Below, piece after piece: positions 667 through 58,471 of a DNA stretch of 64,000 nucleotides. Both the position numbers and the translations under genes were made by a program. Under the pieces are notes generated by a model. It saw only the letters and a program-made list of their open reading frames with translations, did not search any database and was not told where the DNA came from. The stretch covers positions 1,269,100 to 1,333,099 of the forward strand of contig NC_049984.1 in assembly GCF_000003815.2 (NCBI RefSeq). Reading direction: 5' to 3'. This DNA comes from Branchiostoma floridae. Lineage: Eukaryota > Chordata > Leptocardii > Amphioxiformes > Branchiostomatidae. Positions within the stretch are counted from its first letter, which is position 1; the number at the start of each line of letters is the position of its first letter.

Positions 667-3600
667 TCATTCCTCCCCGAACGGGCCGTGGCGGTGCTGA
701 ATGACCTGGGCGGAGTCGATGACCTGCCCGTTGACGGCGAGCACCTGCTCCCAGTGCACGTGGGTCGAGTTCTGCACGCGGAGGCGTCCGTACCCGTACA
801 GCCCGGGAACCCACGCTCGGTACGCTGACCACGGGCCTGCAACAACAGTTGAGTGTTAGATAGTCAAGTGCATAAATAATGCACGCGGAGACGCCCGTAC
901 CCGTACAGCCCCGGAACCCATGCACGGTACGCTGACCACGGGCCTGCAACAACAGTTGAGTGTTAGATAGTCAAGTGCATAAATAACGCACGCGGAGGCA
1001 CCCGTACCCGTACAGCCCGGGGACCCATGCGCGGTAAGCCGACCATGGGCCTGCAACACAGTCACAGCATAAGACATATGAACAACCATATGCTAACTAA
1101 GGCAGTTCTTTTGAATTTACACTCAGTACAACTGAACTGAACAACAGGTAGTGGCAAGGCAAACAGCCAATGCCTTACAAATATAACTGTACATAAGAAG
1201 CCCATAATGTAGCCTATGCATTGCCATTGCTGACGAAATAAAGGGTCAATACATGTACATCATGAATACAAAGAAAAAGCATTATAAATCTAGGGCAATG
1301 CATATACATGTACATGTAGCCAAAGAAATACATACATGTACTAGTCTACCTGAATGACACATGATGAAAATGAATGACACATGCATATCAAACACATGGC
1401 ACATGCACAACATATTTAAGTAAATCTATATTGTATTGACACTGCAAATGCTTTCTGAAGTTGCAATACTTGTAGCAAGTTATAGCATATTGTTACAAAC
1501 ACAATGTAAAATGTAATATAGTAGTAGAATCCATTTTTTATCTACACGTCTATTCTCACCTTTGGGGCCCATCATGGGGTTTAAGATGACAACATGGTGA
1601 ATAACACATTCTCACCTTTGGGGCCCATCATGGGGTTTATGCAGACAACAAGGTGAATAACACATTCTCACCTTTGGGGCCCATCATGGGGTTTATGCAG
1701 ACAACAAGGTGAATAACACATTCTCACCTTTGGGGCCCATCATGGGGTTTATGCAGACAACAAGGTGAATAACACATTCTCACCTTTGGGGCCCATCATG
1801 GGGTTTATGCAGACAACAAGGTGAATAACACATTCTCACCTTTGGGGCCCATCATGGGGTTTATGCAGACAACAAGGTGAATAACACATTCTCACCTTTG
1901 GGGCCCATCATGGGGTTTATGAAGACAACAAGGTGAATAACACATTCTCACCTTTGGGGCCCATCATGGGGTTTATGAAGACAACAAGGTGAATAACACA
2001 TTCTCACCTTTGGGGCCCATCATGGGGTTTATGCAGACAACAAGGTGAATAACACATTCTCACCTTTGGGGCCCATCATGGGGTTTACGCAGACAACAAG
2101 GTGAATAACACATTCTCACCTTTGGGGCCCATCATGGGGTTTATGCAGACAACAAGGTGAATAACACATTCTCACCTTTGGGCCCATCATGGGGTTTATG
2201 AAGACAACAAGGTGAATAACACATTCTCACCTTTGGGGCCCATCATGGGGTTTATGAAGACAACAAGGTGAATAACACATTCTCACCTTTGGGGCCCATC
2301 ATGGGGTTTACGCAGACCCCGTCGAACTCGTTGCACCCGGCGGCCCCGCTGATGATGTGTACTGGCGCGCGCGGGTCGCGGTAGTGCGTGCCCACCAGGG
2401 TGGAGTTATAGACTGGCCACAGCCGCTCGTAGCTGTGCTCGTGGGCCTCGATGATGAGGTCAACACCCTGCTGGTAGAACAGGTCCTCCAGACTAGAAAT
2501 AGCACAAAACATGCGTCAATATCAAAAAACATACCAAACCCTTACCTCCCTCATGACCTCAATGAAAAGCGGCCTGCTGGCCGATTTGAGCTTCTCATGA
2601 ATAAATAAAGGTTCAAACAAACTAGGGTGAACAGAGACACATGGAAGACTAGCTGACTGCTGCCTACCCGTGTCAGGGATCCCAGCAGCAGTATAATCAA
2701 TAGTGGACGTTACTACTACAATGTACTACAATACTGCAAACATCAAACACTATAAAATAATAAAATTCCTTCTTGCTTTATTTTAGTGGTAGAATACCAT
2801 TCAGTACAACATTTTCCAAGCTATCCTACATATACTAGTCTATTTTGAATTGGTCACAACTGTAATCATCTGTGATGAAATTGTTTAGGCCCAAATTGAA
2901 AAATTGGACTGAGAAAGAGAACATGGTATAACACTAAGAAAAACTGCAAGGATGATGTTGATGCCAACACACACATACACAGCACAACATCAATTTCACC
3001 AGCTAAAGTATAAGTAATGCACAAAATAGCACCTACCCTGCTCTGACTCTACTTTTTGCAGTGGTACAGTCGTCCCCGTCCACATTAGAGCAGTACATGG
3101 GCCTGTGCCCGAAGGCGATGATCCAGGGGTGCAGGGTTCGATTCTCGGCGCTGTTAGCCTCGGTCAGGTCCTGCAGCAGCCATTTGTACTGCTCCTCTGC
3201 AGGGCTGTCGGTGAAGTACACTTCTGAGGAGTAACTGCGAGGGAAAAAAAGACTTTCCTGATTGATTGTTCACTAACTCGTTATCCACTTATCCATTAAA
3301 AGTATTTTTAATATATGTTCGACTGTGATTTCACTCAATGCAATTGTTTATTTGTTTGTTTTTGTATATTTGAAATATGTTTTTGTATATTGTATAAATT
3401 TTATTTATTCATGAGGAGCTCAAATCGGCCTGCAGGCTGCTTTTCATTGATGTCATGAGGGAGGTATGGGTCAGATAAAATGTGATTTCAATTGTTACAA
3501 TTGTGTTCATGTTCTTGAGGAGAGGGCTTCACAAGCATTAACGGTTTTCTTTTTTGATCCATCCTCAATAAATAAATGTGAATAAAGTAAAATAAGATAA

Positions 3601-6600
3601 GGATAAAAAAAACAGGGATATGACAAAAATTGGAAACGGCAGTAAATTTAGAACATAGTGATTCCTATTGCTGCTGCAAGTGGGCATTGTGGAGATGCAA
3701 AAACCTCGTTGAGAAAAACGATTGTAGTTGTGTAAAGATGGACTAAAATCTTAAACACTTTAGCAACCAGGTGAAGCTTAGTCATTACAGAATTAAGAAA
3801 ACGAGTTGTAATCATCTAATGACACTAAAATCATGACCACGTCATGGTACGTCAATAGACCTCTTTCCAAATTCTGGTTAATTGTTGGACAAAAACTAGG
3901 GTCAGGGGTAAAACAGTGATGTTATAAAATATACATGGTTTATTGCTCGGCCACCATTTGTACCCAAAGCGACAGGGTTTGAAAAACCGTAGTCTGGTCT
4001 GTAGAAGCAAGCAGGAAGATTTTTCACATTCGTGCATCGGATTGTAGAATGAAAAAAGATGATTGTGCTCCACAGAGCTGTGTTTGCATTGCCTGACTTG
4101 TGCTTACCTGATGAAGTGGGCCCTCCCCAGGTTGAAACTGTACCACATCTTATCCATGGTCCCGGGCCAGGGGGACTGGGGCATGGAGAACCGGGTCAGG
4201 TAAGGGTTGAAGTCAAACTCGATCTCTGGGGAACAAATCAGAACCGGGTCAGGTAAGGGTTGAAGTCAAACTCGATCTCTGGGGAACAAATCAGAACCGG
4301 GTCAGGTAAGGGATGAAGTCAAACTCAATCTCTGGGGAACAAATCAGAACTGGGTCAGGTAAGGGTTGAAGTCAAACTCGATCTCTGGGGAACAAATCAG
4401 AACCGGGTCAGGTAAGGGTTGAAGTCAAACTCGATCTCTGGGGAACAAATCAGAACCGGGTCAGGTAAGGGTTGAAGTCAAACTCGATCTCTGGGGAACA
4501 AATCAGAACCGGGTCAGGTAAGGGTTGAAGTCAAACTCAATCTCTGGGGAACAAATCAGAACTGGGTCAGGTAAGGGTTGAAGTCAAACTCGATCTCTGG
4601 GGAACAAATCAGAACTGGGTCAGGTAAGGGTTGAAGTCAAACTCAATCTCTGGGGAACAAATCAGAACTGGGTCAGGTAAGGGTTGAAGTCAAACTCAAT
4701 CTCTGGGGAACAAATCAGAACCGGGTCAGGTAAGGGTTGAAGTCAAACTCAATCTCTGGGGAACAAATCAGAACCGGGTCAGGTAAGGGTTGAAGTCAAA
4801 CTCAATCTCTGGGGAACAAATCAGAACCGGGTCAGGTAAGGGTTGAAGTCAAACTCAATCTCTGGGGAACAAATCAGAACTGGGTCAGGTAAGGGTTGAA
4901 GTCAAACTCGATCTCTGGGGAACAAATCAGAACCGGGTCAGGTAAGGGTTGAAGTCAAACTCGATCTCTGGGGAACAAATCAGAACCGGGTCAGGTAAGG
5001 GATGAAGTCAAACTCAATCTCTGGGGAACAAATCAGAACCGGGTCAGGTAAGGGTTGAAGTCAAACTCGATCTCTGGGGAACAAATCAGAACCGGGTCAG
5101 GTAAGGGTTGAAGTCAAACTCGATCTCTGGGGAACAAATCAGAACCGGGTCAGGTAAGGGTTGAAGTCAAACTCGATCTCTGGGGAACAAATCAGAACCG
5201 GGTCAGGTAAGGGTTGAAGTCAAACTCAATCTCTGGGGAACAAATCAGAACTGGGTCAGGTAAGGGTTGAAGTCAAACTCGATCTCTGGGGAACAAATCA
5301 GAACTGGGTCAGGTAAGGGTTGAAGTCAAACTCAATCTCTGGGGAACAAATCAGAACTGGGTCAGGTAAGGGTTGAAGTCAAACTCAATCTCTGGGGCAC
5401 AAATCAGACCCGGGTCAGGTAAGGGTTGAAGTCAAACTCAATCTCTGGGGAACAAATCAGAACCGGGTCAGGTAAGGGTTGAAGTCAAACTCGATCTCTG
5501 GGGAACAAATCAGACAATGGAGGTCAGTGTAGGCAGGCAGCAGCCTGAGAGTGATTGTCCTGGTTAAATGAATAAAAAATGAATGAAATGAATTAATGAA
5601 TGAATGTTTAAATATATTCAATAGCACGACAGGGACATCTGTAAAGTCTGCATTTATAAATACTCTCTAACCTTTAACACATACACACTGAAGTAGGCAT
5701 TTGGAAACCAATGCTCTTTGGTTTACATGTTAGACGACAGGGAGAAGGTTAAATGTATCTAGTATCTAGAGATATACATGTGTATGGGAGGTAGGAAAGG
5801 AGGAATTGGCCATGTGATATGATCAATACAATTAAAGCAAAACTCGACAATCTGTAACTTTCACATTTATTGACAATTCCCATACAGTAATCACTGGGCA
5901 GAGGAAATGAGACTGGGTCATGACTGTTGATTCAAAGGATAGCAGTGGCAGTAATACATGTAGACACAACAACTTTAACCCTTCAGTACTTCAGTACAAA
6001 ATAAAACCATTTTCAAAATCAAGATTTCAGCTTGAAGGATACTGAAAATTTTCTAAATATTTTCTAAACTAATGCACTTTAAAACTGTTCCAGAATCAAG
6101 ACAAATCAGGTGTGTCACTCTGTAACCTGACACCATGTGAGACAGTAAACAATCCTGTTACCATGGTTTCCTGGACAGGTCATGTAGGGCAGCTTGGTGG
6201 CAATGTCCTGGATCCGGTTCATGAAGTCATCACCGTACTGGGGAAAATACAAACAAATAAATAAACAAAAAAACAAAATTACTAAATCCTGTTCATAAAG
6301 CATTCACCATACTGGGGAATAAAATTATGACCACGTCAAAAATTATGACCACATCATGGTAAATCATGACGGGGAAAGTGTTCAGCACTGCCTAGCATCA
6401 TGCTGAAGAGGCTAAGCGGATCTCCAAGTAGAAGTTGGGGTTGAGGATGGTAATGTGTTCTGTCAAATGGATTGAGAGGCATGACATTACAACCAACATT
6501 ACAATCTTCACCCCACATCTGCTTGGAGATCAAGATTAAGCCCAGGGTTGGACAAGTCCACTAGACCGATCGTCCCGGGCAAGTGAAAGCGCTGATCGGT

Positions 6601-9600
6601 CAAGTGCATGTCCTACCCCACTTGCCCCATCAGGCAAGTAAGATTTTTCGATGAGTCAGATTCTGTTATACATGTTATATGATCATGTACTTCTACTTGT
6701 TCCTTTTTACAGTCATGGCATCAAGCATTGTTCAACACAGAAGTGCCAATAGTGTAAGAAGTTCAATACTGGAAGTGAAAAAACAAAGAAATTTTCTTTT
6801 CACCATTAAAATTTTGGGCAAGCGAAATGTTTCTTCGGAAAGTAAATTTTTAATGTACTTGCCCGATAGGACAAGTGAATTTAAAAAAACTTGTTAAGGC
6901 CTGAAGCCCTCCCCACCTTTCCCCCCTCGGTGTGCAGGTCATATGCAAAGTCCCCCACGTGCAGCATCATGCTGGAAAGGTAAAGTCTATCTCCAAGAAG
7001 ATGTTGGGGTTGAGGATGGTAATGTGTTCTGTCCGACAGCTGCCACAGAGGCATGACAGAAAATGTTATCATCTTCCACCCCACATCTGCTTGGAGATCA
7101 AGACTACGACATACGCACCTTTCCCCCCTCCGTGTGCAGGTCGTATGCGAAGTCCCCCACGTGCAGCACAGCCGCGTACTTTCCCGTCTCCGCCTCGTGC
7201 TTCAGCCGGGCCAGACTCGGCGCCCCGCCCACGCGCCCCATGTCTCCGTACACGAGCAGCTCCGGTGACCAGTCCTGATGGGCAAATTTATAAATCAACG
7301 AACAATCAAAAATTAGAATCTACATATTACAAAAGATGTGTTCTTACCACAGACTTTTGAAGAAAGGAACATTTCGATTTCATCAAAAACCAAACTAAGG
7401 AACTTCTCAAATCCATAGCATTAAAAGTTTAAACAATGCTAATCATTGGATACGCTTGGCTTATAGAACACAAAAATATCACATATTCTTCTTGGTACAA
7501 TCAAACAGGGGTTAGCTTTATGTAAACTAAGACTTAACCAATATGTGTTTTACGTCGATGAAGGTTAGACAGCTAGATAATGAGCCAAATATGCCAAAAA
7601 GCAGTTACTCAAGCTACTGGATAAGATTTTGGAAACAGTCAGACGTTTCAGACAGCAATCTGGTGTCTTTTGTCAGTGACACTGAAGATTTGAAGTGTTT
7701 CAATTTTGTTTACTGAAATCTCTCCTCCCAAGTTGTCGCCGGGATTTACTTTTGCGGTAGTGGGAAAATTTAGTGTTTGCGGTGGTTTTGACGGTAGCGA
7801 CATAGACTGCAGTCTCATACTATAATGGAAAAATGTTTGCGGTGGGTTTAAGTTCGTTAATATAAAACCACCACAAACATTTCTGCATTTTACAGTACTA
7901 AAACCCTGACCCACCAGATCGTCCCTCTTGGCGGTGAACAGGAAACCCGGGCTCACATCTTCATCACACAGCACCTTGTAGGAGTAGGACCTGCCTGGGA
8001 GCAGACCCTGCAGATTAAACAGCAATTCAGTTTTACAGCACATACCAAACCAGACCAATATGATTGCAGTACAATATGGAAGAGGCATTAATTTTGTAAA
8101 AGCCCACTTCCCTGTACATAAGGGCAATTTCATCTAGATAAAAAAAAAGTATAATGAGATACATGTATTATCTAGTGATGTGAAAACAGTGGCCACTCTA
8201 AATTTGTAATGACAGACTTGAACTGTCCGGTAATAGGAATGTAATATACAGAATTCAAAACAGCTTTTATACATAAGTCTGACTATGTGCATCATAGACA
8301 TTGACGAAAATGTGATGAGGGATACATGTACTTCAGAGATGGTTGAGCCAAAAACTGGCCACCCATAAGATATTCCCAATGACACTGGAGCTTCAACCTA
8401 CTGCAATGTTTCTCTTTTAGCCAATGTGAGGTGACTGTACATGATATTTTGTATTTATAAAAAATTAATAAACTGTATTTATAATAAATAAATAAACTGA
8501 ACTGAACTAACCTCAGACCCACTACACTACTCTCAGGCAATATCTGGAAGCCTGGCCAGATTTTGTATTTATAAAAAATTAATAAACTGTATTTATAATA
8601 AATAAATAAACTGAACTGAACTAACCTCAGACCCACTACACTACTCTCAGGCAATATCTGGAAGCCTGGCCCTCCATATTGTTGATGTATGTGTACGTGT
8701 TATGTAAAAGGCTAGTTAAAGATCTAGCTAAGCATGTCTGGTCCACAGTACAGTCTTACCGTGAGAACTGCCCTATAGATGTGTTGCAGCCCTTACCGTG
8801 AGAACTGCCCTATAGATGTGCTGCAGCCCTTACCGTTAGAACTGCCCTATAGATGTGCTGCAGCCCTTACCGTGAGAACTGCCCTATAGATGTGCTGCAG
8901 CCCTTACCGTGAGAACTGCCCTATAGATGTGCTGCAGCCCTTACCGTTAGAACTGCCCTATAGATGTGCTGCAGCCCTTACCGTTAGAACTGCCCTATAG
9001 ATGTGCTGCAGCCCTTACCGTGAGAACTGCCCTATAGATGTGCTGCAGCCCTTACCGTGAGAACTGCCCTATAGATGTGCTGCAGCCCTTACTTAAAGAT
9101 CTAGCTATGCATGTCCAGTTCACAGTACAGTCTTACCGTGAGAACTGCCCTGTAGATGTGTTGCAGTCCCTCGTTGTTCCCATACCAGAAGTTGTTGTAG
9201 ACTGCAGCGACCTCCTGGCTGTAGTTCCCCGGAGCTATCCCATACTGCACCCTTCCTGTCCCATGAGACTTTGTGGACCACATGACCACCATCTGGCTGG
9301 AGGCGTTGCCCCAGGAGATGTGGATTTGCTCCGGCGTTGTGTCGGGCGCCTCGGTGGGCAACACCGGCCAGCCCCAGCTCTCCCAGGGGTCCTCCCACCC
9401 CGTGTAAGGGTAAAGGTCATTGTCATACTCCTGACTGTTGTACCAGCTGGGTATGATTGGGTTGTCTGTCCCTAGCACCTCCTCAGCACTTTCGTCTATA
9501 GCATTGTCACTTTCAGTGTCTTCTGCTGCATTGTCATTGGCAGAGTTTCCTTCAGCATTTCTACCTGCATTGTCTTCGTCATTGGCATTTGCAGCATCTT

Positions 9601-10910
9601 CATTCTGTTTGGGAGTGGCTGTAACTGACTCCTGAATTTTTCCACCAGAGCTCTCTGTGGCTCCTCCTTCTACATTTTCAGTAGTAGAATTTTGAAGTCT
9701 TCCTTGTGTGAGATTTTCTCCACCGCTCCCATAGGATACAGTCAGGCTGGGTGCAACCAGCCCCTCAATTTCAGCAGCATAGTTTTCTGTGGCGCCAGCG
9801 CTTGAGTCTTCCTCTAAACTGATCTTGACACCATTGTTCAGTGGACCAGAGCCCCCACCCTGGTCTGCAGTGCCTTCATCATCACTGGACAGTAAAGCCT
9901 TCAGGAAGTCTGAGTCAACAGAGAGACGTTTCCTGTTGAGGGTCTCCTCTTTGGGTACCCCTCCAACATCAGTGTCAACTCTGCTCTCTGATTGGCTGTC
10001 ATCTCCATCATCAGTATCAGCTCTGCTCTCTGATTGGCTGTCATCTCCTTCATCAGCATCAGCTCTGTTGTCTGACTGGCTGTCATCAGCTATTGCAGAT
10101 TCTGGTGTTGGTTGGGGAACGAGCACAGGACCTGGAAGGTTCAAGGGCACAAAGACTGAACAATCTCTTGCCTTGCTTAATTTGAAGTGGCTACATCTGA
10201 TATAAATTTGAGACAGCACCATGTGCAAGAACAAACATAAATGTATTGCACTGATTCCATCATTTTCTTATCTTTCCTATCTTTTGAATTGAACGTGTCA
10301 GTGGCACCAAACTTACAAGTATAAGCCTGCTCATGGTTCCAAGTGCACATGCACACCAAAATGCATTGTGGGTAAAAGGTCAAAGGTGAAGGCCTCTAAC
10401 TTGTAAACATTTCTTGTCTACCTACATTACATTTCAGGCTTCAGCCTGTTTTTCAGGACTCCCTACACATATATAGAAACAGACACCATACAATACTTGG
10501 GTACTACACAGTAACTACATGTACCTGACTAGCTCTTGTCTACACCATGTTTAATAGGTTGACCTGAAAAACAAGTCATTGACCTGGGTGTGCCAAATAA
10601 ACAAAAACAGTGAAAACAGAAGTCCAGTGGTGTTTTGTTTATGTCTTAGGGGCCTTCAACTTTGACATATGACCCATGATGCACATTGCTGTTCTTGTAG
10701 ATTTGGAAATACAACATGTAGAAACAAACTTATTCTCCTGGGCGGATAATCCTTACCGAATCCCTTCAGCAGTGTGCCCAGCCAGTCAAGGTCAATGTGG
10801 TGGTCCTGCACCAGACCCCCCACGTCTGTACGGTTGGTAAGGTCCACAGGAGTGAGCAGCACACCTGACAGGTGAGACAGGAGGAGAAGGAGTACCAGCT
10901 CAGTCTGCAT
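667..10910 (-). CDS. ACP7: purple acid phosphatase, acid phosphatase type 7-like, secreted
   Basis: Nine coding exons on the minus strand, joined by GT-AG sites with consistent phase: 10910-10757, 10131-9137, 8007-7915, 7274-7119, 6237-6162, 4225-4108, 3234-3037, 2492-2287 and 836-667. The sum is 2166 nt, or 721 residues plus TGA. The family hydrolyses phosphomonoesters at a binuclear metal centre. Order of parts: signal peptide (residues 1 to about 20, Leu-rich), acidic Ser/Asp/Glu/Asn-rich insert (about 55-300), Ig-like N-terminal PAP domain from about 317, metallophosphatase domain, then a C-terminal WSAYRAWVPG segment. All five metal-ligand blocks are visible: GDMG (about 425), GDFAYD (about 455), GNHE (about 490), FGHRPMYCS (about 574) and AHEHSYERLW (about 614). 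Vertebrate ACP7 is nearer 440 residues; the excess is the acidic insert in exon 2. The start at 10910 is the ATG directly before the hydrophobic signal. Five of its exon edges lie in tandem arrays (separate entries). The product and exon chain are secure; transcription start and UTRs are not. Confidence 0.93.
774..1055 (-). repeat. 107-bp tandem repeat on the last-exon acceptor of the phosphatase gene
   Basis: Three copies with a 107-bp period (a landmark falls at 774, 881 and 988). On the minus strand each unit carries the cag acceptor plus the first codons of the terminal exon (GPWSAYRAWVPGLYGYGR-like). Only the copy ending at 836 runs into the true exon; the other two are intronic partial exons with intact-looking acceptors. 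Confidence 0.85.
1056..1550. other. phosphatase intron 8, unique part
   Basis: AT-rich intronic sequence with several short ACATGTACATG-like stretches. I see no exon or mobile-element ends here. Confidence 0.5.
1552..2315 (-). repeat. 56-bp tandem array on the exon 8 splice donor
   Basis: Thirteen to fourteen copies of a 56-bp unit, near identical, differing mainly in one base (atgcag versus atgaag). Read on the minus strand each unit contains the last codons of exon 8 (NPMMGPK) followed by the GTGAGA donor. The authentic donor is the copy at 2286-2285, next to the rest of exon 8. Every other copy is a decoy donor inside intron 8. Confidence 0.92.
2535..2625 (-). repeat. dispersed short repeat, minus-oriented copy
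   Basis: A segment whose core reads, on the minus strand, as GAAGCTCAAATCGGCC followed by a CAGGCCGCTTTTCATTGA-like stretch. Similar cores occur at about 3395-3475, 40650-40735 and 47225-47285 on the plus strand. This makes it a small interspersed repeat family with copies in introns of different genes. Confidence 0.6.
3395..3475 (+). repeat. dispersed short repeat, plus-oriented copy
   Basis: Contains the family core GAGCTCAAATCGGCCTGCAGG and continues into a tttcattgatgtcatgaggg stretch, within phosphatase intron 6. It is the same family as the copies at about 2535, 40650 and 47225. No ORF and no clear terminal repeat are visible, so the class of element is undecided. Confidence 0.6.
4190..5512 (-). 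repeat. 53-bp tandem array on the exon 6 splice acceptor
   Basis: About 25 copies of a 53-bp unit. On the minus strand each unit is a pyrimidine-rich stretch ending ttccccag followed by codons for EIEFDFNPYLTR. The copy nearest 4225 is the real 5' edge of exon 6, which continues into FSMPQSPWPG. The others lie in the upstream intron as acceptor-plus-partial-exon cassettes. Units differ at a few positions (cgatctc/caatctc, accg/actg), so this is an expanded and slightly shuffled array. Confidence 0.93.
5520..6110. other. phosphatase intron 5, unique part
   Basis: AT-rich intronic sequence between the acceptor array and exon 5. Nothing coding or repetitive is recognised. Confidence 0.45.
6397..6540. 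repeat. diverged duplicate of intron sequence flanking exon 4
   Basis: This roughly 145-bp stretch matches 6964-7110 with substitutions. Both contain ggttgaggatggtaatgtg and end in ccccacatctgcttggagat. It marks an old segmental duplication around exon 4. Confidence 0.7.
6905..6990 (-). pseudogene. partial duplicate of phosphatase exon 4 (GDFAYD metal-binding segment)
   Basis: On the minus strand this reads MLHVGDFAYDLHTEGGK followed by a GTGGGG donor-like site, repeating the last 17 codons of exon 4 (7119-7274). It has an AG upstream (tttccag) but lacks the 5' two thirds of the exon. Inclusion in addition to exon 4 would repeat a catalytic block, and inclusion instead of it would remove the GDMG block. 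It is most likely a non-functional duplicate left by the same event that duplicated the flanking intron, though its codons are undamaged. Confidence 0.75.
7740..7898 (-). mobile_element. partial MITE related to the copy at 19100-19311
   Basis: The right end reads catttctgcattttacagta, the reverse complement of the left terminus of the 212-bp MITE at 19100. The interior shares the tgtttgcggtgg motif. The opposite terminus is not clear, so this looks like a truncated or rearranged copy in phosphatase intron 3. Confidence 0.6.
8447..8674. repeat. 114-bp tandem duplication in phosphatase intron 2
   Basis: Two near-perfect consecutive copies with a 114-bp period, each holding tttataataaataaataaac and ctcaggcaatatctggaagc. 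It is intronic and non-coding. Confidence 0.85.
8756..9175 (-). repeat. 37-bp tandem array on the exon 2 splice donor
   Basis: About nine intronic copies of a 37-bp unit plus the authentic exon end. On the minus strand each unit holds CTGCAG, then 24 nt encoding HIYRAVLT, then GTAAGG. A micro-exon-like block is thus bounded by AG and a good donor in every unit. The real donor is at 9136-9135. Confidence 0.9.
9900..10100 (-). repeat. coding tandem repeat in the acidic insert
   Basis: Within exon 2, a roughly 42-bp unit repeated about three times encodes DDSQSESRADTDDG-like 14-residue repeats. It forms part of the acidic, probably disordered, region specific to this phosphatase. Confidence 0.75.
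10132..10756. other. phosphatase intron 1
   Basis: Intron between the signal-peptide exon and the acidic exon. Donor CG|GTAAGG and acceptor CCAG|GTCC join in phase, giving LLKGFGPVLVPQP. No repeats or other features are seen. Confidence 0.85.
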
Positions 10911-11835
10911 CCTCCTGTACAATCATAGAGAACAAACTGTGTCAGGTTCACAGGTGTGAGCAGCACACCTGACAGGTGAGACAGGAGGAGGAGGAGGAGT
11001 ACCAGCTCAGCCTGCATCCTCCTGTACAATCATAGAGAACAAACTGTGTCAGGTTCACAGGTGTGAGCAGCACACCTGACAGGTGAGACAGGAGGAGGAG
11101 GACTACCAGCTCAGTCTGCATCCTCCTGTACAATCATAGAGAACAAACTGTGTCAGGTTCACAGGTGTGAGCAGCACACCTGACAGGTGAGACAGGAGGA
11201 GGAGGACTACCAGCTCAGTCTGCATCCTCCTGTACAATCATAGAGAACAAACTGTGTCAGGTCCACAGGTGAGCAGCACACCTGACAGGTGAGACAGGAG
11301 GAGGAGGAGTACCAGCTCAGTCTGCATCCTCCTGTACAATCATAGAGAACAAACTGTGTCAGGTCCACAGGCGAGCAGCACACCTGACAGGAGGAGGAGG
11401 AGGAGTACCAGCTCAGTCTGCATCCTCCTGTACAATCATAGAGAACAAACTGTGTCAGGTCCACAGGTGAGCAGCACACCTGACAGGTGAGACAGGAGGA
11501 GGAGGAGTACCAGCTCAGTCTGCATCCTCCTGTACAATCATAGAGAACAAACTGTGTCAGGTCCACAGGCGAGCAGCACACCTGACAGGAGGAGGAGGAG
11601 GAGTACCAGCTCAGTCTGCATCCTCCTGTACAATCATAGAGAACAAACTGTGTCAGGTCCACAGGTGAGCAGCACACCTGACAGGTGAGACAGGAGGAGG
11701 AGGAGTACCAGCTCAGTCTGCATCCTCCTGAAGATCATAGAGAACAAACTGTGTCAGGTCCACAGGTGAGCAGCACACCTGACAGGTGAGACAGGAGGAG
11801 GAGGAGGAGTACCAGCTCAGTCTGCATCCTCCTGT
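10838..11835 (-). repeat. about 102-bp tandem array of the phosphatase start/signal-peptide segment, first block
   Basis: Roughly ten copies, 95-105 bp each, of the first-exon start region. On the minus strand each unit contains ATGCAGACTGAGCTGG followed by codons for a Leu-rich signal peptide ending SHLSGVLLT. Unit length varies mainly through the number of gga (Leu) triplets and a tgtgag/tgag difference. The copy at 10910 continues into the true exon 1. The others lie upstream, so each could supply an alternative start only if spliced or read into exon 1. Interrupted at 11835 by a LINE and resumes at 15943. Confidence 0.92.
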
Positions 11836-38345: not shown

Positions 38346-38568
38346 GGACAGCTTTATGATGCTATTTTATGCCACCGAAGAATTTTCTTGGAGATAGCCA
38401 CATGCTGTTTCTGGAATTAGGTTATTGCAAGGAGTAAAAGGGATCTTGATTCTTGTACATGAAATGTTGCTCCATATACAACAGGATTCACTCCAGGAAT
38501 TGCAAGAAAATTTATTGTGCCACATTCGGGGCCATTCGGGTGGGAATTCCAAACGGACCTTATATCAC

Positions 38569-38911: not shown

Positions 38912-39715
38912 GGGGTTGTATCAGTTATTGGGACTAGTAGCATGCAGACGGTTTATGGGGTGACAATATGCAGTTCCGTGGTGGACAGACCTGTGCCTGA
39001 GATGGTTTCCAAACATTGTGGTGCATAAATTTGATATTCCCTCGATCATCCCTGACGAGCTGGCTTAGGCCAGTTTAATTTGTGGATTACGCACGCGCTC
39101 ATTAGTGTCGTCTGATTTCGGAAAAAAAAAAAAAATTTTTTTTGCAGATGGTGAACACGACGAGGAAGTACCAAATGAGAAAATATATATTGTGGTACAC
39201 TTAGAAGTGACAGAAGTGTCCACACTAGTGTCACTTTGTGCACCTCTTTAATACAGAAATAGAAGACTTTTTGGCATGTTTTGTCGGCTCTGGTCTTGTT
39301 ACACCATTTATGATATCTATTTTGAAAATCTAGATAGCCTTTTTGTGTATCTTGTTGTTTTTTTCTTCCTAATGAAATTTTGAGGACACAGTGGATGTCA
39401 TCCATAAGATTTACTTTCTTGCTCTTCGGAATAGCTTTAGACAAATTAGATGTGGGTATTGATCAGAGGCGTCTGCAGGCTGATCCGCATGTGTAAGGGG
39501 GTCTGCATGCTCTACGTACTAGTATCAAAGGCGTAGGCAGCCTGTTTTTATTTCCCGTAATTCGTAGGGAAAACCATTTTGTCTACGTAATTCGTAGCGA
39601 GGCGACCAAATTTAGCGTAATTGCCTTCCTTAATTTAGCGTAATACGTACTAGGGAGTTCTTCCGAATTCAGCGTAAATCGTTGTCGGGACCCCCCATGC
39701 AGACCCTCGTGTAAC

Positions 39716-39800
39716 CACATGTGCAGGGGGGGGGGGGCATTTAGACCTGCGCTTTCTCCACTTATCCTCACATAGGCACAGATCAGCCAATCACGTCGCA
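39716..39800 (+). promoter_or_regulatory. possible opsin promoter region (CCAAT box)
   Basis: A GCCAATCA motif lies near 39785, about 90 bp before the candidate opsin ATG, in a locally GC-richer stretch. No TATA box is evident. This is positional inference only. Confidence 0.3.
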
Positions 39801-39876
39801 GCTCACACCTGTCCGATTTCAGCGGATCAAAGCACACAAGGCTCTGCAGCTGATCAGACGGTGCCGTGACCTCGCC

Positions 39877-40953
39877 ATGGCCACCACGCCGGCAGACCGG
39901 CTGGACGGCCTCACACCGGCGGGCCGGGGCGCGACCACCGCCTATCGTCATCGGCGTGTATCTCATACTCATAGGTAAGCTGAGACACGGGGGTACGACT
40001 CCCGCTCTATCAGATGGATAACGACTAGTCGTTTTTCTTCTATTTGAGCCGTTGATGCAACAGTTGAAATAGAAAGAATCTAGTATGGCCTACGGTTTTT
40101 AAGGTTATTCATCCAGGTTAACAACATTTGATGAGGACAATTCTATCTTTACAACTGGATACGACACGAAGGTTACTTCAGGACGTTTTGAGTGGCATCC
40201 ATCAAAGTCTCTTCACTCTAGTGACGATGAAGAAGAGTGATGGATGTCGCAAACGTTCGAAAGTAATCTCTGAATCGTATCCAGATGTAGAGATTGAACT
40301 TTTCTTAAAGACTCACCCCCAGTGCATGCAATAATCAACCACAATGTTGTTGTTTTTTTCGTTCAGCAGTTCAATAGCTATATATTGTACGAATTTCAAA
40401 GCTCTTTGGAAAAGCAATTAACTTGCAAATTACCAGTAGCTGATTCCTGAAAATATCTAGTACAATTGTAAGGTTTTGTATTCTTACCTTAGATGCCTTT
40501 TTTACCCAAGCTCCTGCTATCAAACTATGCTTGACTGTGTTTGTGTTTATTTTTTAACGTGTGTTTGTCTCTAGGATAACTCGTAGAGGTTGTCTGCATC
40601 ACTGTTCTCTGGCTGACGCCCACTTCAACCGGAACTCCACCGGGACTTTTTGTTTGAACCTTTGTTTATCAATGAGAAGCTGAAATCGGCCTGCAGGTCA
40701 CTTTTCATTCAGGTTATGAGGAAAGAGGGACGGGTCAGACAAAGTATAAAGTACACTTTACATAGTTTAAAGACCTAAGTTTGTACACACAATTTTACAT
40801 ACGTGGTACAAAATACATAATAGTGAAAGCTGCTACATGATTCGAGTCCGTTCATTTTGGTCTTTTCCGTTACTTAAGAGTATCTTAAAGGAAGCCAGAT
40901 TTGGGCCTGTGCGTATGTCCGGTGGTAGACTGTTGCAGACAAATTTGTGGCTC

Positions 40954-40984
<31 letters not shown>

Positions 40985-43900: not shown

Positions 43901-46900
43901 ACGAAGAAAAAACGTGGTGTATATCCTATCTGGTCAATCTCCAAACAGATGTCGTTGTAGATAGTCTAGTCGTACCGGTTTTTGACAGTCATACTCCATA
44001 GGTCGCTGGAAAAACTGTAGAAATGGAACAAATAGAGGAGTAAGCCGGCTAGAGAACAGCGCGCGACCACGGGATCCCTGGGTCTCGCGCTGTTCCCTAG
44101 CCGGCTGTACTTCTCTCACCGGCTTACTCCTCTATTTGCTCCACTTCTACGGTCTTTCCAGCGACCTATGGAGTCTGGTAGAGACAAGTACACCGGCCCC
44201 AAGACAACAACCCTGACCACAAGCCCGCCTTGCTGCAGGTACCGGCGCCATCCTGGGGAACGGGCGGGTGCTGTGGCTCTCCTACCGGTGCAGGGCCAGG
44301 CTGCGGCCGGTGGAGATGTTCGTGGTGAGCCTGGCGGTGGCGGACGTGGGACTCTCCCTGGTCGGCCACCCGTTCGCCGCCGCCTCCAGCCTGATGGGCC
44401 GCTGGTCCTTCGGCTCAGCCGGATGCACCTGGTGAGCAACAACAATACAGATCTCCTTCACGACATTCTTTTTTATAACACTTTTAAGTGTACATTATAC
44501 TAGTTTTGTTGGGTTTGGCTTACTTAAAAGTAGCACAACATAGTCATAGAATGTAGTTTTTAGCACCTTTTTACTTTCCTTATTATACGTGTTGTTTGTA
44601 CCCCTGCAATTAGCCCTCGGGCACGAACTTATTATAAACATTATAAACATATTTGATATTTGTTTTACTCAAGTAAAAACATACAAGCAGCTAGACAAGG
44701 TTATTGCAAAGGACTTATAACTAACTTCTGTTGTATATTTCTGTTGTTATATTTTGTATTGTTTTAAAATGGACTCCAGGACGACTAGTGATTTATCATT
44801 AATGCAGATCTCAATAAACCAAACGGTGACAGGGAAAACGGAACACAACAAGGTCAAAACTGGTCTCTATTCTACTCTGCTCTGCTCTGCTCTGCTCTGC
44901 TCTGCTCTGCTCTGCTCTACTCTACTCTGCTCTACTCTACTCTACTCTACTCTACTCTGTGCTATAGTGTACTGTACTGTACTGTACTCTGCTCTGCTAC
45001 TACTCTGCTACTACTCTGCTCTGCTCTGCTCTGCTCTGCTCTGCTCTGCTCTACTCTGCTCTACTCTGCTCTGCTCTGCTCTGCTCTGCCCTGCTCTGCT
45101 CTGCTCTACTCTACTCTACTCTGCTCTGCTCTGCTCTGCTCTGCTCTGCTCTACTCTGCTCTGCTCTGCTCTGCTCTACGCTACTCTACTCTGCTCTACT
45201 CTACTCTACTCTGTGCTGTAGTGTACTGTACTGTACTCTGCTCTACTACTACTCTGCTCTGCTCTATTCTGCTCTACTCTGCTCTACTCTGCTCTGCTCT
45301 GCTCTACTCTACTCTACTCTACTCTACTCTACTCTGTGCTGTAGTGTACTGTACTCTGCTCTGCTCTGCTCTGCTCTGCTCTGCTCTCCTCTGCTCTCCT
45401 CTGCTCTGCTCTGCTCTACTCTACTCTGCTCTGTGCTGTAGTGTACAGTACTCTACTCTACTCTGCTCTGCTACTACTCTGCTCTGCTCTATTCTGCTCT
45501 ACTCTAATCTATCCTACACTACTCTATTCCACTCTACACTACTCTACTCTACCAGTAATTGAACGGTGTTATATCTGTTTTAGGTATGGCTTCGTTGTGT
45601 TTTTCTTGGGCATCGCCAGTATCGCCAGCATGACGCTCATGAGCATTATGCGCTTCATGATTGTCTACAAGAGATACCCGGGTAAGGCGGTCCCCGTCAT
45701 GTCATAGTAATGTCTAGAGCTTCTGAAATACTTTACGCCAACATTGACAAGGGGACGCGATAGTGAATCATAGGAGCCGATGCAACTTGATTGGAAGAGG
45801 CGTTTATTCCATGATGCTCACACAATCACAGCCATGATAGAAGAGAGCGAAGAGGATCATGGGATCCCTGACAGTGGAGGCAGTGACGTCACTAACTCAT
45901 CAACATAACCCAATGGCGTGATTTCTCTTTATCTTCTTATTTCTCTCTTTCTCCTTTTTACAAAACTATCGTGTGCTAAAAATTGGGAAGAACAATAAAT
46001 GCAATGTCTAAAAAAAATCAAAGCCTGTTGTCTACTTTTCGTAATGAATGGTATAAATACTAAAAATCTGCAAGGTGTGCATTAACAATAGTGAGGTCCA
46101 TGAAATAATCCCCTTAACAATACTTGGGAAATCTAGATCTAATGAAAAGACAGATATAACATTACAAGATACGTGAAGAAAAGTGTTGACTAATGAGGTA
46201 AGGTTTGTTAAACACAATATGAAAGATAACTTGTAACATCAGATTGTGAATACATTACGGACAAATGAAGAAAACAGTTGAACTGAAATAGATTGTCAAT
46301 GTTTTTCTGTGAGATAATGTCTAGCTACCATAAAGGGAAAATACAATATCGATTATCTGCAGAAGAAAGAGAAAAAAAATACTGGTAAAGCAGAGTTCTG
46401 TTTGGGCAAAGTTCGTGACTGTCAAAGTTCTGTGACTCTCTTGGCCGGAGGTGTTAACGGTTACAGTTCGGCGTGAGCGATGTTCTTCTCGGCTGAAGCA
46501 TAAAGTGCCTCTTGGCTGGTATACAGTTCAGCGTAGATGATATTCTTCTGAGCTGACACAGTTCAGCGGTGATCAGACGAAGTTTGTAGAGCGGAGTTCG
46601 TGGGGGAAAGTCCGTGGGCGGTCCGCGTCAAATCAGGTAGGACGTTATGTTGAAGGTTGAACGAAAGAAACATGGCGGTTGGTGAATTTTGACGTTGTAC
46701 TCACACGGCCGGGGGACACTGGGAAGATGCGGGGTTTTGCCGGATAGGTAAGCCGAGTACTACTCCCTGCGACTTCTATGAGTCCTCTGGGGGTTGTTCA
46801 GCGAAGCTGGCACAGGGATGAGGTGTAGACACGCATAACTTCCGACCAAGGGCTCCGCCGAGGAGCTAAGACCAGATCCCCTCCTGCACATGTGATGGCG

Positions 46901-49900
46901 CCATTTGTTAACCTACATCCTCATTTGCTAGTGGCTTCCCGTCCACTCAGAGTGCGATCTCCCCTGCTCAAAGTTCGGGTTTGGGCCTGGGTATCGTTTC
47001 CCAGCCGCTGCACACCACGCCAACATTGACAAGGGGACGCGATAGTGAATCATAGGAGCCGATGCAACTTGATTGGAAGAGGCGTTTATTCCATGATGCT
47101 CACACAATCACAGCCATGATAGAAGAGAGCGAAGAGGATCATGGGATCCCTGACAGTGGAGGCAGTGACGTCACTAACTCATCAACATAACCCAATGGCG
47201 TTACTTCAGCAATTGTTTGTCTCGTTTATTGGAACCCGTCTGAGAAGCTCAAATTGGCCTACAGGCCGCTTTTCATTGTTGGCGTGTGTGTGTGTTTGTT
47301 TATATGTTTGTTCGTCTGTTTACTAAATAACGTTATACAGTAACTGTATTGGTAAAGGTATCAGTGAGCACTATAATCGTAGCACTAGATCAAAGGAAGG
47401 GATCCTTTGCCTACAATGTACATTTTAAAAAAGCTGACAACCTCGATTTTTTTTAGATTTATCTCTCCAATATTTCTTCTACTAATTCTGAGAAGACACG
47501 ATAATATTGGTGACCTCACGTGTGTGAAGGAAAGTTTATTTTCCCCGTGATTTTTGGTGACCTCACGTGTGTGAAAGAAAGGTTATTCTCCCCGTGATGT
47601 TTGGTGACCTCACGTGTGTGAAAGAAAGGTTATTCTCCCCGTGATGTTTGATGACCTCACGTGTGTGAAAGAAAGGTTATTCTCCCCGTGATGTTTGGTG
47701 ACCTCACGTGTGTGAAAGAAAGGTTATTCTCCCCGTGATGTTTGGTGACCTCACGTGTGTGAAAGAAAGGTTATTCTCCCCGTGATGTTTGGTGACCTCA
47801 CGTGTGTGAAAGAAAGGTTATTCTCCCCGTGATGTTTGGTGACCTCACGTGTGTGAAAGAAAGGTTATTCTCCCCGTGATGTTTGGTGACCTCACGTGTG
47901 TGAAAGAAAGGTTATTCTCCCCGTGATGTTTGGTGACCTCACGTGTGTGAAAGAAAGGTTATTCTCCCCGTGATGTTTGGTGACCTCACGTGTGTGAAAG
48001 AAAGGTTATTCTCCCCGTGATGTTTGGTGACCTCACGTGTGTGAAAGAAAGGTTATTCTCCCCGTGATGTTTGGTGACCTCACGTGTGTGAAAGAAAGGT
48101 TATTCTCCCCGTGATGTTTGGTGACCTCACGTGTGTGAAAGAAAGGTTATTCTCCCCGTGATGTTTGGTGACCTCACGTGTGTGAAAGAAAGGTTATTCC
48201 CCCCGTGATGTTTGGTGACCTCACGTGTGTGAAAGAAAGTTTATTCTTCCCGTGATGTTTGGTGACCTCACGTGTGTGAAAGAAAGGTTATTCTCCCCGT
48301 GATGTTTGGTGACCTAACGTGTGTGAAAGAAAGGTTATTCTACCCGTGATGTTTGGTGACCTCACGTGTGTGAAAGAAAGGTTATTCTCCCCGTGATGTT
48401 TGGTGACCTCACGTGTGTGAAAGAAAGGTTATTCTCCCCGTGATGTTTGGTGACCTCACGTGTGTGAAAGAAAGGTTATTCTCCCCGTGATGTTTGGTGA
48501 CCTCACGTGTGTGAAAGAAAGGTTATTCTCCCCGTGATGTTTGGTGACCTAACGTGTGTGAAAGAAAGGTTATTCTACCCGTGATGTTTGGTGACCTCAC
48601 GTGTGTGAAAGAAAGGTTATTCTCCCCGTGATGTTTGGTGACCTCACGTGTGTGAAAGAAAGGTTATTCTCCCCGTGATGTTTGGTGACCTCACGTGTGT
48701 GAAAGAAAGGTTATTCTCCCCGTGATGTTTGGTGACCTCACGTGTGTGAAAGAAAGTTTATTCTCCCCGTGCAGGCCAGTACCCCACCCGCCGGGCCAGC
48801 TGCGTCCTGGTCACCGCCGCATGGCTATACGGGCTCTTCTGGGCATGCGCACCACTGGCAGGTCAGTATCAACGTTTGATGCGGTTATACAATGTCAAGA
48901 ACAACGCCGCATCTTACCCATAGACTTTCTTCGTTTTTATATTTCTATAGACAGGTAGGAAACTGTTGTTTAAGACGCACATCATGGTGTCAATTCGGAC
49001 TTGCATCAGTCAGGTTCAAATCAGTTCTATCAGGCGAAACTGGGGAAACATGTCGCAGTTATAATATGGACAGCATCAGCATTCCCAACCTCTCGGGTGT
49101 TCTATGGAACCAGGTTCTGAAATTCAACACCATGTTAGCAGTGCTGCGTTTAGTTCCCGTGCTGTTCTATAGAACCAGGTTCTGAAATTCAACACCCTGT
49201 TAGCAGTGCTGCGTTTAGTTCCCGTGGTGTTCTATGGAACCGGGTTCTGAAATTCAACACCCTGTTAGCAGTGCTGCGTTTAGTTCCCGTGCTGTTCTAT
49301 AGAACCAGGTTCTGAAATTCAACACCATGTTAGCAGTGCTGCGTTTAGTTCCCGTGCTGTTCTATAGAACCAGGTTCTGAAATTCAACACCATGTTAGCA
49401 GTGCTGCGTTTAGTTCCCGTGCTGTTCTATAGAACCAGGTTCTGAAATTCAACACCCTGCTCGCAGTGCTGCGTTTAGTTCCCGTGGTGTTCTATAGAAC
49501 CAGGTTCTGAAAACCGATACCTTCAACACAGAGTATATGTCGCACTTCATTTCAGCGTTCAACGCAGAGATCCTAATTTTTGGAACAGATAGATAGAGAA
49601 CATATTCTGTCATTTTGGGCATTTTTGTCGTTCCTTTTTTTCTTTTCTTCATTAATTTCTTTCTGCGCACTCCTGTTCTCCAGGCTGGAGTCAGTACCAA
49701 CCGGAGCCGTATGGCCTGTCGTGCAGCGTGGACTGGGGCGGCTTCAGCAGTGACGCCGGCGGCAGCTCCTTCATCATCTGCATGCTCCTCTTCTGTACCG
49801 CCGTCCCTGTCGTCATCATGGTGACGTCATATGCCGCCATCTTTGTCATCTACAGACAGGCGCAGAAGGGCGTGGTCCTGAACCTGCAGGTTAACGCTAC

Positions 49901-50989
49901 GTTCGGCGGGAAGAGGCAGAGGACGGAGAGGAAGCTCACGCTGGTATGGTTGGTGGTACTTTTGGTTGCTGGGCAAGACAAGATCAATAATGCGGTAATA
50001 TGCGCACCTAACGAAGGAAGATCTGTTCAAATATCTTATGTCATCATCTAACTACGATATACTGGAATAACTATGTGAGTTTGTCTATACATGCTTCAAG
50101 AAGAGAGAAGAAGCACATACTTTGTAGTATATGTATAGTTTTCTGTTTACTTCCTTTATACCAATCTGACTGCATTTAGCCCCAATGGGGCATGAGTATG
50201 CAATAAACTTCATTGGCATTGTCATTGTCATTGGTAATGCCGATTAAGGCATGCGCAATACAATAACCCAACTAGTGCCGATCGCGTACTATGCCTGAAT
50301 ACAATTAAGAGCAAAAGACAACCTAGCACGATTGGGCCGAACACCACACAATCCCACCAGATTCAGATTCAGCTAATATTGCATTTGTCTTGGCATATGA
50401 CATTTTCAAATATCACACAAAGTGCTCCACAGATTACAGTATGTCAAATCCACGATCAATCGACATTGATTGTAATTTACTCCACACTCATGTTCATGTT
50501 AAAGAACCCCCGCACGTGCGATGGTGCAAATCCTTCTGTAATTGGTGATTCTCTACAGATCACCCGGAACCAAGGAAGAATAGTGACATATCAGTCACTA
50601 GTGGAGATCTGTATCAAACCGAACCAGTCGCGTGTGTCCACAGATAGCGCTGGCCGTGTGTGGCGGGTTCCTACTGGCCTGGCTGCCCTACGCAGTAGTG
50701 GGGCTGTGGGCCAGTGTCGCCGGGGTAGATGCAGTACCGCTCGCCCTCGCTAGTGCGGCGCCCCTGTTCGCCAAGAGCAACAGTCTGTGGAACCCCATCA
50801 TCTACCTGGGAATGAACGAGCGCTTCAGGTCCGAATAATTTATACCTATTCGAAATCTTTAGCTGCTGGCGCTTTTCCCCAAACCTATCCACTCTTATGT
50901 CTCATAATGTCGTTTCTTCACTTTCAGTTGGACTTTCTAAAATCTCTCTCTCTCTGTTTGTATGTGTGTGTGTGTGTGTGAGTGTGTGT

Positions 50990-51052
<63 letters not shown>

Positions 51053-51463
51053 TGTGACAATCTCTGCCAGATTGGCCACATCTATAGAATGAATAAGAAA
51101 CTACAATCTGTATCGGTCAGTAGACTATGTTAACTCCTATTTGATATCAGCGTCGGCTATGCCTACGGCGAAAAAGTCCTATGCGAAAATGACAGTAGCA
51201 CATGAATGAACCATGAAAACTACCCAGCTTATGGAAGTGCACGTCACTGTTTCAGGTCCAACATGTGCGCCTGCCTCGCCAACACGCCTGTGGCCCAGAC
51301 GGCGGTGCGCATGCGTGCTCAGCAGCCCGAGGTTGCCCTCCGCCTGAGCCCTCGGGACCCGCTGGTTTCCGGACAGCCCTCGGGCTCTGCGGTGGTTTCT
51401 GTCCCGGGATCCTCTGCGGTGGTTTCTGTCCCGGGATCCTCTGCGGTGGTTTCTGTCCCGTGA
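39877..51463 (+). CDS. group-4 (neuropsin/Opn5-like) opsin, seven-TM photopigment GPCR
   Basis: Exons: 39877?-39974, 44239-44431, 45584-45681, 48775-48861, 49684-49943, 50644-50828 and 51256-51463. From 44239 onward the sum leaves an open frame of 342 residues plus TGA. Opsins bind retinal and signal through G proteins at the membrane. Seen here: TM1 end with LGNG, TM2 LAVADVGLSL, Cys at the start of TM3 (SAGCTW), E181-position Glu and disulfide Cys (EPYGLSC), TM6 FLLAWLPY, and TM7 FAKSNSLWNPIIY with the Schiff-base Lys. A helix 8 Cys pair is CACL. The E/DRY position is IMRF, without an acid. The first exon encodes IVIGVYLILIG in phase with 44239, but the Kozak-like ATG at 39877 is one base out of that frame and a TGA at 39851 closes the frame upstream. 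The start is therefore unresolved. The last 27 or so residues are a 9-residue repeat. Confidence 0.88.
40650..40735 (+). repeat. dispersed short repeat copy in opsin intron 1
   Basis: Carries the same core (gaagctgaaatcggcctgca) and gaacctttgtttatcaatga stretch as the copies at about 2535, 3395 and 47225. Confidence 0.6.
41018..41206. mobile_element. degenerate foldback element related to that at 43989
   Basis: Begins CTCTACCAGACCCC and ends in an inverted CCTGGTAGAGG. The interior shares ataggtcgctgg and gccggctagggaacagc with the better preserved element at 43989-44180. It is a diverged copy. Confidence 0.55.
41781..41903. mobile_element. foldback MITE
   Basis: The left arm AATCTCCCATCAGATTTAT and the right arm GTAAATCTAATGGGAGATT are inverted, and gtggcataag is paired with cttatgccgc inside. 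A tail, ggcgtgtgcgccgtgagtg, follows and recurs at about 42388. Confidence 0.75.
42000..42410. mobile_element. nested elements: LINE/SINE tail followed by rearranged foldback MITE
   Basis: At 42012-42075 a retroelement-like 3' tail (cattgtacccgtacaattgt, then caataaag and GATTTGATTT repeats) is followed by an inverted pair (ctcccgtcagatttaccggt versus accggcatcggtaaatctga-like) from about 42077. A second inverted pair is gattaaatctccaagctgat near 42203 versus ggatcctcttggagattaaa near 42359. The block looks like one foldback element interrupted by another. Confidence 0.6.
42880..43988. other. opsin intron 1, unique part
   Basis: No exon, repeat array or element ends recognised. Confidence 0.4.
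43989..44180. mobile_element. about 190-bp foldback MITE immediately upstream of opsin exon 2
   Basis: A near-perfect hairpin: ACTCCATAGGTCGCTGG on the left pairs with CCAGCGACCTATGGAGT on the right. The inner arms gaggagtaagccggctag and ctagccggc...ttactcctc also pair. Its right end lies about 60 bp from the splice acceptor at 44238. Confidence 0.88.
44868..45546. repeat. 680-bp (CTCTG/CTCTA)n pentanucleotide satellite
   Basis: An interrupted pentanucleotide array with occasional TACTA and GTGTACTGTA inserts, in the opsin intron directly upstream of the exon at 45584. It forms part of a very long pyrimidine-rich tract. The Leu/Cys/Ser/Ala frames through it are artefacts. Confidence 0.95.
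45734..47201. mobile_element. LTR-like element: identical 185-bp terminal direct repeats around 1.1 kb non-coding core
   Basis: 45735-45919 and 47017-47201 appear identical over 185 bp. The repeats start ACGCCA and end TGGCGT (short inverted ends rather than TG..CA). TACTT occurs just outside both ends (45729-45733 and 47202-47206), fitting a 5-bp target duplication. The core (45920-47016) has no protein frame. It could be a terminal-repeat retrotransposon in miniature (TRIM), a deleted LTR element, or a simple duplication. It lies in the opsin intron after exon 45584-45681. Confidence 0.55.
47225..47285 (+). repeat. dispersed short repeat copy
   Basis: The core gaagctcaaattggcctaca plus ggccgcttttcattg matches the copies at about 2535, 3395 and 40650. 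Confidence 0.6.
47505..48774 (+). repeat. 47-bp tandem array abutting the opsin exon acceptor at 48774
   Basis: About 27 copies of a 47-bp unit: ggtgacctcacgtgtgtgaa, then agaaaggttattctccccgtgatgttt. The last copy replaces gatg by gcag to give ttctccccgtgcag|GCCAG, the real acceptor. The array is therefore a multiplication of the polypyrimidine tract just upstream of the splice site. Units are nearly identical, with a two-unit-block variant (cctaac, ctaccc) recurring near 48315 and 48550. Confidence 0.93.
49095..49510. repeat. 65-bp tandem array in an opsin intron
   Basis: Six to seven copies of a 65-bp unit containing gttctatagaaccaggttct and gttagcagtgctgcgtttag. Unlike the other arrays it does not include a splice junction. 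The nearest exon begins at 49684. Confidence 0.9.
50145..50225 (+). mobile_element. probable LINE 3' tail
   Basis: ccccaatggggcatgagtat, then GCAATAAACTTCATTG and (CATTGT)n repeats. The polyadenylation-like word with a terminal short tandem repeat resembles the tail at 38300 and 42050. No ORF fragment remains. Confidence 0.45.
50949..51053. repeat. (TG)n microsatellite
   Basis: About 100 bp of TG dinucleotides with a few interruptions, in the last opsin intron. Confidence 0.97.
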
Positions 51464-51600
51464 TCCTCTGCGGTGATAGCTCTCCCGGGATCCTCTGCGG
51501 TGGTTTCTGTCCCGGGATCCTCTGCGTTGGTCTCTCTCCCAGGATCCTCTGCGGTGGTGTCTCTCCCGGGATCCTCTGCGGTGATATCTCTCCCGGAAGC
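51385..51600 (+). repeat. 27-bp tandem array forming the opsin C-terminus and 3' UTR
   Basis: About eight copies of a 27-bp unit (ctctgcggtggtttctgtcc, then cgggatc) encode SAVVSVPGS. The opsin frame runs through the first units and stops where one unit has CCGTGA instead of CCGGGA (stop at 51461-51463). The remaining units lie after the stop. Confidence 0.9.
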
Positions 51601-58444: not shown

Positions 58445-58471
58445 TCCTGTAAAATTGTTCAGTGCTAAGAC

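Follow-up and report, generated by a model that had tools for sequence, protein, structure and literature searches.

Tandem arrays across splice junctions in two neighboring genes of Branchiostoma floridae

The stretch of DNA considered here, a window of 64,000 nucleotides of the Branchiostoma floridae genome (C6:1269100-1333099; positions below count from its first letter), holds a purple acid phosphatase gene on the reverse strand, followed by an F-box gene and an opsin gene on the forward strand, whose models were rebuilt from open reading frames, GT/AG sites and Pfam matches. Tandem Repeats Finder (TRF) returned 38 rows for this window, which include all of the arrays listed in an initial annotation of the same DNA. 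That annotation had described at least ten arrays at exon/intron junctions in three genes; nine prove to lie across real junctions, but these belong to two genes only, the phosphatase (five arrays) and the F-box gene (four arrays), and the opsin contributes none. Each of the nine repeats a genuine splice site together with the exon and intron sequence that flanks it, in 3 to 25 copies. The arrangement is already in the literature: borders between exon and intron that are duplicated in tandem, in the manner of minisatellites, were first reported in Adh3 and are known as “mirages”, and they have been published for amphioxus globin genes (PMC3087553) and other amphioxus genes (PMC3902484).

The phosphatase gene (667-10914, reverse strand) comprises nine coding exons (667-836, 2287-2492, 3037-3234, 4108-4225, 6162-6237, 7119-7274, 7915-8007, 9137-10131, and 10757-10914), which form an uninterrupted frame of 721 amino acids and are separated by GT/AG introns. 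Its protein matches the Pfam families Pur_ac_phosph_N (9e-18), Metallophos (7e-17), and Metallophos_C (3e-17), and purple acid phosphatases in the PDB at 1e-22. The arrays of this gene share its strand. The exon 9 acceptor is covered by a TRF array of about three 107-bp copies (773-1062), with the functional copy last, consisting of two identical acceptors and a diverged outer third copy. The exon 8 donor lies in a 56-bp unit repeated 14 times (1552-2317), of which the first copy is functional, and 14 of 14 sites read AAG/GTGAGA. At the exon 6 acceptor, 25 copies of a 53-bp unit (4187-5514) end with the functional one; AG is intact in every copy, and the outer edges share TCT (25 × 53 + 3). 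The exon 2 donor array (8755-9169) has ten sites, namely the functional copy, a second copy 81 bp on, and then a 37-bp unit eight times over; its structure is nested, in that an 80-bp repeat (91% identity) encloses the 37-bp unit made of 32 exonic bases and GTAAG, the motif that its edges also share. Two degenerate copies had escaped the initial inventory. One is a decayed exon 4 donor copy (6914-6966), which holds the exon end and three intron bases, lies about 200 bp into the intron, and is 94% identical to 7116-7168 over 53 bp; the other (~6265-6310) is probably a degenerate version of the exon 5 acceptor, recognized by eye only and below threshold in both repeat comparisons. A counter-example, purely intronic according to TRF and the phosphatase model, is a 114-bp unit present twice at 8446-8671.

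The fifth phosphatase array lies at the start codon. It had been taken for a 102-bp repeat of the start and signal peptide, and the array is indeed real and located at the start, but because each unit begins at a 3' splice site immediately upstream of the start codon (TACAG/GAGGATG) and runs from there into the coding start, it is properly an acceptor array of exon 1, and one interrupted by a long interspersed nuclear element (LINE). Its downstream part, with 102-bp units (10840-11835), holds the functional copy (10914), and the outer edge of its upstream part, with units of 102 or 105 bp (15943-17415), is probably where the intron originally ended. The two parts contain 23 copies with the site, one of them a partial copy beside the LINE. 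This element, a non-long-terminal-repeat retrotransposon of ~4.1 kb (11836-15942, reverse strand), has an open frame of 1098 amino acids (11892-15188) with reverse transcriptase and endonuclease domains (Pfam RVT_1 at 3.8e-15 and Exo_endo_phos at 3.3e-11). It sits inside a single 102-bp unit, with a target-site duplication of 10 bp, ACAGGAGGAT, and its insertion therefore postdates the expansion of the array.

In the F-box gene (forward strand), the F-box exon is an open frame at 22735-23088 with a Pfam F-box-like match at 7e-10. Three downstream exons (32074-32731, 34144-34343, and 34939-35189) have GT/AG introns and an uninterrupted frame of 368 amino acids to the stop; judging from position and strand, they probably belong to the same gene, and they gave no Pfam or PDB match. 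The placement scoring given below covers the three 3' exons of this gene. Every array in this gene is, again, on the gene's own strand. The donor AA/GTACGT is repeated in a 65-bp array (32703-33381) with 13 sites, 12 of which have GT, and the array decays onward to ~33700. It is followed by four copies of a 76-bp unit with an acceptor (33908-34190; functional copy last), five copies of a 32-bp unit with the donor G/GTAAAT (34325-34486; functional copy first), whose edges share AA, and four copies of a 56-bp unit with an acceptor (34755-34969; functional copy last).

The nine arrays have a common anatomy. In transcript order, the functional site is the first in all four donor arrays and the last in all five acceptor arrays, because it is the copy contiguous with the body of the exon. 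A hand tally found GT or AG retained in 91 of the 92 extra copies. In seven junction arrays the edges were measured, and three of these are clean, sharing two, three or five bases (AA, TCT, and GTAAG). A search of the assembly (513,431,437 bases in 431 contigs) with a 56-bp unit found that unit at its own locus only (3 of 42 rows, with 40 of 1601 candidates scored); the other 39 rows are copies of an interspersed repeat at the end of the query. A chromosome-scale B. floridae assembly of 19 chromosomes has been published (PMC12373286). The interspersed repeat has the core AAGCT(C/G)AAAT(C/T)GGCC and occurs in the window at 2538-2600, 3417, 40677, and 47245; its core, looked for as letters in literature text, gave no hit, and papers on amphioxus miniature inverted-repeat transposable elements yielded no sequence with which to compare it.

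Several features bear on whether the extra copies affect the mRNA. Unit length is a multiple of three in one of the nine junction arrays, as against all six arrays in exons or long open frames (Fisher P 0.0014); the latter comprise three exonic arrays (at 9500, 9961, and 51385) and three in long open frames (at 54923, 56653, and 60136), which have no Pfam match over the repeat and are presumed to be exonic. The junction arrays show no frame constraint. When use of the nearest extra site was translated in silico for eight arrays, the start-codon array being left out, seven ran into a stop codon and the eighth shifted frame, with no stop in the part read. In the extra copies, conservation is no higher in the exon-derived portion than in the intron-derived one, with mismatches at 79 of 2598 and 22 of 1345 positions, respectively, or 56 of 2378 and 10 of 1285 once a single mis-anchored row is removed; these counts omit copies that bear insertions or deletions, so that of the two most irregular arrays one is represented by 9 of its 22 copies and the other by 5 of 13. 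From frame, stops, and base conservation, then, the extra copies look silent in splicing. For the amphioxus globin and Adh3 mirages, reverse-transcription PCR (RT-PCR) suggests normal splicing (PMC3087553).

The opsin gene (forward strand) was mapped over six exons (44240-44432, 45584-45682, 48775-48861, 49684-49943, 50644-50828, and 51256-51463). The last four match Pfam 7tm_1 at 9.4e-19, the opsin matches rhodopsins in the PDB at 2.7e-22, and the exons for transmembrane segments 2 and 3 were located by tblastn, using a rhodopsin query, together with reading of the sequence. Within the exon at 45584-45682, the expected site of the E/DRY motif reads IMRFMIVYK. In a putative first exon (39877-39976, forward strand), the ATG is out of frame with a stretch that resembles a transmembrane segment; the opsin may start elsewhere, or the assembly may differ there by an insertion or deletion. 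Against the third mapped exon stands a 47-bp unit repeated 27 times (47507-48774, forward strand), which the initial annotation described as ending at an acceptor. It does abut the acceptor, but the acceptor is not multiplied: the copies read GTGATG, GTGCAG occurs in the last copy alone, and exon sequence is not included. Because AG is not within the repeated unit, this intronic array falls outside the class of mirages. Farther on, 6.4 copies of a 65-bp unit (49098-49512, forward strand) are purely intronic according to TRF and the opsin model, which makes them a second counter-example.

Other repeats on the forward strand of this region were noted. A TCTGC pentamer array of more than 600 bp (44871-45552) ends ~30-80 bp upstream of the acceptor of the transmembrane segment 3 exon. 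Two direct repeats of 191 bp, 99% identical and ~1.1 kb apart (45735-45925 and 47017-47207), lie in an opsin intron and possibly mark the termini of a mobile element. The last opsin exon has a 27-bp in-frame array (51385-51596) with the stop codon inside it, and the array therefore extends into the 3' untranslated region. Beyond the opsin, 54611-63086 holds two adjacent gene copies with NHL repeats, and the long open frames before them contain in-frame repeats of 51, 33, and 189 bp. Ab initio exon prediction with the window as training set was discarded as too weak, and no conclusion was drawn from it: it recovered five of nine phosphatase exons (three with both ends right), one of three F-box exons along with one wrong-strand call, and one of six opsin exons, with ends off by one base, and it called ten exons in 200 kb.

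For the comparison of array placement with chance, each array counted as a single unit, and placements that fell completely within exons were excluded. Among arrays with units of at least 30 bp, 9 of the 12 that are not exonic span a junction, against 2.44 expected (P 5.3e-5); with units of at least 18 bp the count is 9 of 14, against 2.57 expected (P 1.2e-4), and a rotation test gave P 1.5e-4, all three over 28 junctions. When the spans were widened to take in 33 junctions, 2.21 were expected against the nine seen (P 2.3e-5), and when GC content was matched within 0.05 the expectation over the same 33 junctions rose to 3.04 (P 1.5e-4). All of these P values are post hoc, because the window was chosen for its pattern. 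Junctions inside repeated units number 5 of 17 mapped in the phosphatase gene, 4 of 5 in the 3' part of the F-box gene, and 0 of 11 in the opsin. Outside the three genes, the only arrays in the window with units of at least 30 bp are the three in long open frames. The initial annotation’s judgement that chance placement is unlikely is borne out: the junction preference in the mapped genes of this window is not due to chance, and it holds after GC matching. Its further statement that only a minority of arrays avoid junctions leaves uncounted those in exons or long open frames.

Two samples were taken elsewhere in the genome. In 20 regions of 10 kb each, spaced regularly along five chromosomes and amounting to 200,000 bases (19,646 of them N; 180 kb without N), TRF detected 15 minisatellites (unit of at least 25 bp, at least 2.3 copies), at least one of which is a clear mirage; flanks were read for four of the 15, and the count is therefore a lower bound. 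The mirage is an acceptor array of three 86-bp copies (grid region L026, 4113-4358, reverse strand), recognized by its reading frame and acceptor. Its exon fragment, for which Pfam and PDB gave no match, may resemble GPR107/108. In another grid region (L024, 441-4020), a 43-bp unit with CAGGTAAAC is repeated more than 70 times around an N gap, with no exon recognized alongside. At 21 exon matches of the Metallophos family in the genome, no repeat spanned an exon edge, and a candidate junction case in L029 (176 bp × 2) was rejected, as this repeat ends ~11 bp inside the intron, near the donor. Junctions with arrays amount to 9 of 33 in the window against 0 of 42 match ends at the Metallophos loci (Fisher P 3e-4), a rough comparison, since a match end need not be a junction and several of the loci share sequence. 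Mirages thus occur elsewhere in the genome, and the two samples, both small, give no genome-wide junction excess. The preference for splice borders is strong in the window, and the word “systematic” is established for the window only, since the independent sample of the same genome (1 mirage among 15 minisatellites; 0 at 21 Metallophos matches) is small and without excess. A search of open-licence papers turned up no published test, across an amphioxus genome, of whether arrays coincide with junctions, although one may exist elsewhere.

Taken as a whole, the nine arrays are very probably amphioxus mirages, that is, duplicated exon/intron borders that expanded as minisatellites and whose extra copies are silent. 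Such an array would begin when a short stretch over an exon/intron border is tandemly duplicated, plausibly as an ordinary tandem duplication with short homology whose outer copies diverge later, and the duplicated stretch would then expand via slippage or unequal exchange. The exon would go on using the copy adjacent to its body, which is the first in a donor array and the last in an acceptor array, and the other copies would stay behind in the intron, silent although their splice sites look intact. If splice-site pairing across the exon favors the nearest site, the same mRNA would result at any copy number, and the extra copies would persist for that reason. Two observations weigh against this account. 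Duplication followed by tolerance predicts equal numbers of arrays per base in introns and at junctions, a prediction that the junctions exceed here, and placement therefore needs a further cause. In addition, the remaining four of the seven measured junction arrays overlap at their edges by more than the clean ones, from 7 to 60 bp; these overlaps may represent diverged outer edge copies. The idea that filler DNA lies between copies, which came from the long overlaps, was dropped, as the outer intron edges appear diverged rather than new.

A less likely explanation is that GC-rich exon sequence is prone to duplication and that only in-frame arrays survive within exons, whereas arrays of any length survive at junctions, giving an apparent preference for the latter. 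GC content is 0.60 in exons and 0.39 in introns, in-frame arrays are present in the window both within exons and within long open frames, and the frame constraint differs by class as described above, half of the six exonic arrays being presumed to be so. Matching for GC, however, shifts the expectation just from 2.2 to 3.0 against nine observed, and it already over-corrects, because junction units are mixed in GC by nature.

Rather unlikely is a mutational process aimed at exon/intron junctions themselves, through co-transcriptional R-loops, repair, or microhomology in the splice consensus. The junction excess in the window, which survives GC matching, would follow from such a process, and the bases shared by the edges of the array at the exon 2 donor are themselves a splice motif, GTAAG; of the five junctions in the 3' exons of the F-box gene, moreover, four have an array and one does not. 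The independent samples are without this excess, however, and the opsin offers 11 mapped junctions and no junction-spanning array. A similarly low probability attaches to the broader proposal that border-directed duplication in amphioxus, with a GTAAG-like consensus as microhomology, saturates some genes with silent arrays and supplies raw material for introns.

It is very improbable that the arrays are selected splice-site decoys that tune exon use or trigger nonsense-mediated decay, a function that the initial annotation had suggested in part. Although almost all extra sites are intact and most would yield a stop if used, as decay-coupled control requires, the intact sites are accounted for by the high identity of young copies without selection, and published mirages combine an unstable copy number with RT-PCR results that suggest normal splicing (PMC3087553). 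An assembly artefact, with repeats inflated or two haplotypes joined, is just as improbable: the window does contain three N gaps (1864 bases), but the copies of an array differ by different variants, insertions, and deletions, and one array has copies on either side of a LINE with its target-site duplication.

The mirages already published for amphioxus (Adh3, the globins BflGb6 and BflGb9, troponin C, and PGBD5) resemble the arrays of the window in having units across a border, either donor or acceptor, in retaining AG/GT in many units, and in placing the functional site at the exon end. Those in the globin paper show length and somatic instability, many units with AG/GT, and apparently normal splicing, and they were proposed there as raw material for intron gain (PMC3087553). 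PGBD5 has repeats of 60 and 108 bp over splice sites, and troponin C was added as a further case (PMC3902484). The published genes compared here have one or two arrays each, with copy numbers in PGBD5 (2 or 7 and 3 or 6) that differ between assemblies, whereas the window has nine arrays in two neighboring genes, up to 25 copies, and a LINE inside one array. The op8 opsin of B. lanceolatum has a satellite-like fifth intron and a last exon that starts with a repeat unit (PMC5802833), but the opsin array of the window halts before AG and includes no exon sequence.

Other systems share some of these features. Internal tandem repeats, or minisatellites, are also found at exon-intron boundaries of human duplicated genes (PMC2812944), where their variation alters splicing and forms new introns, whereas the frame and stop pattern in the window argues for an unchanged mRNA. 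The Rogers model of intron gain by tandem duplication of AGGT likewise involves duplicated splice-like sequence, but the copies in the window adjoin existing introns and no new intron was seen. The dual-specific splice sites of polyubiquitin genes also lie in tandem repeats (PMC10809524); there the repeats are coding and the sites variably used, in contrast to the mostly intronic, out-of-frame repeats described here. The kind of array is thus already known, and what is added is its density and size, a placement test, frame and stop evidence, and a LINE within an array. If the excess at junctions is local, the window still holds the densest set of mirages among the published cases compared here, with frame and stop evidence for silence. 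If junctions do attract duplication, these genes would constitute a natural experiment in which the splicing machinery passes over as many as 24 intact sites and uses the 25th, and they would offer insight into the birth of introns from repeats.

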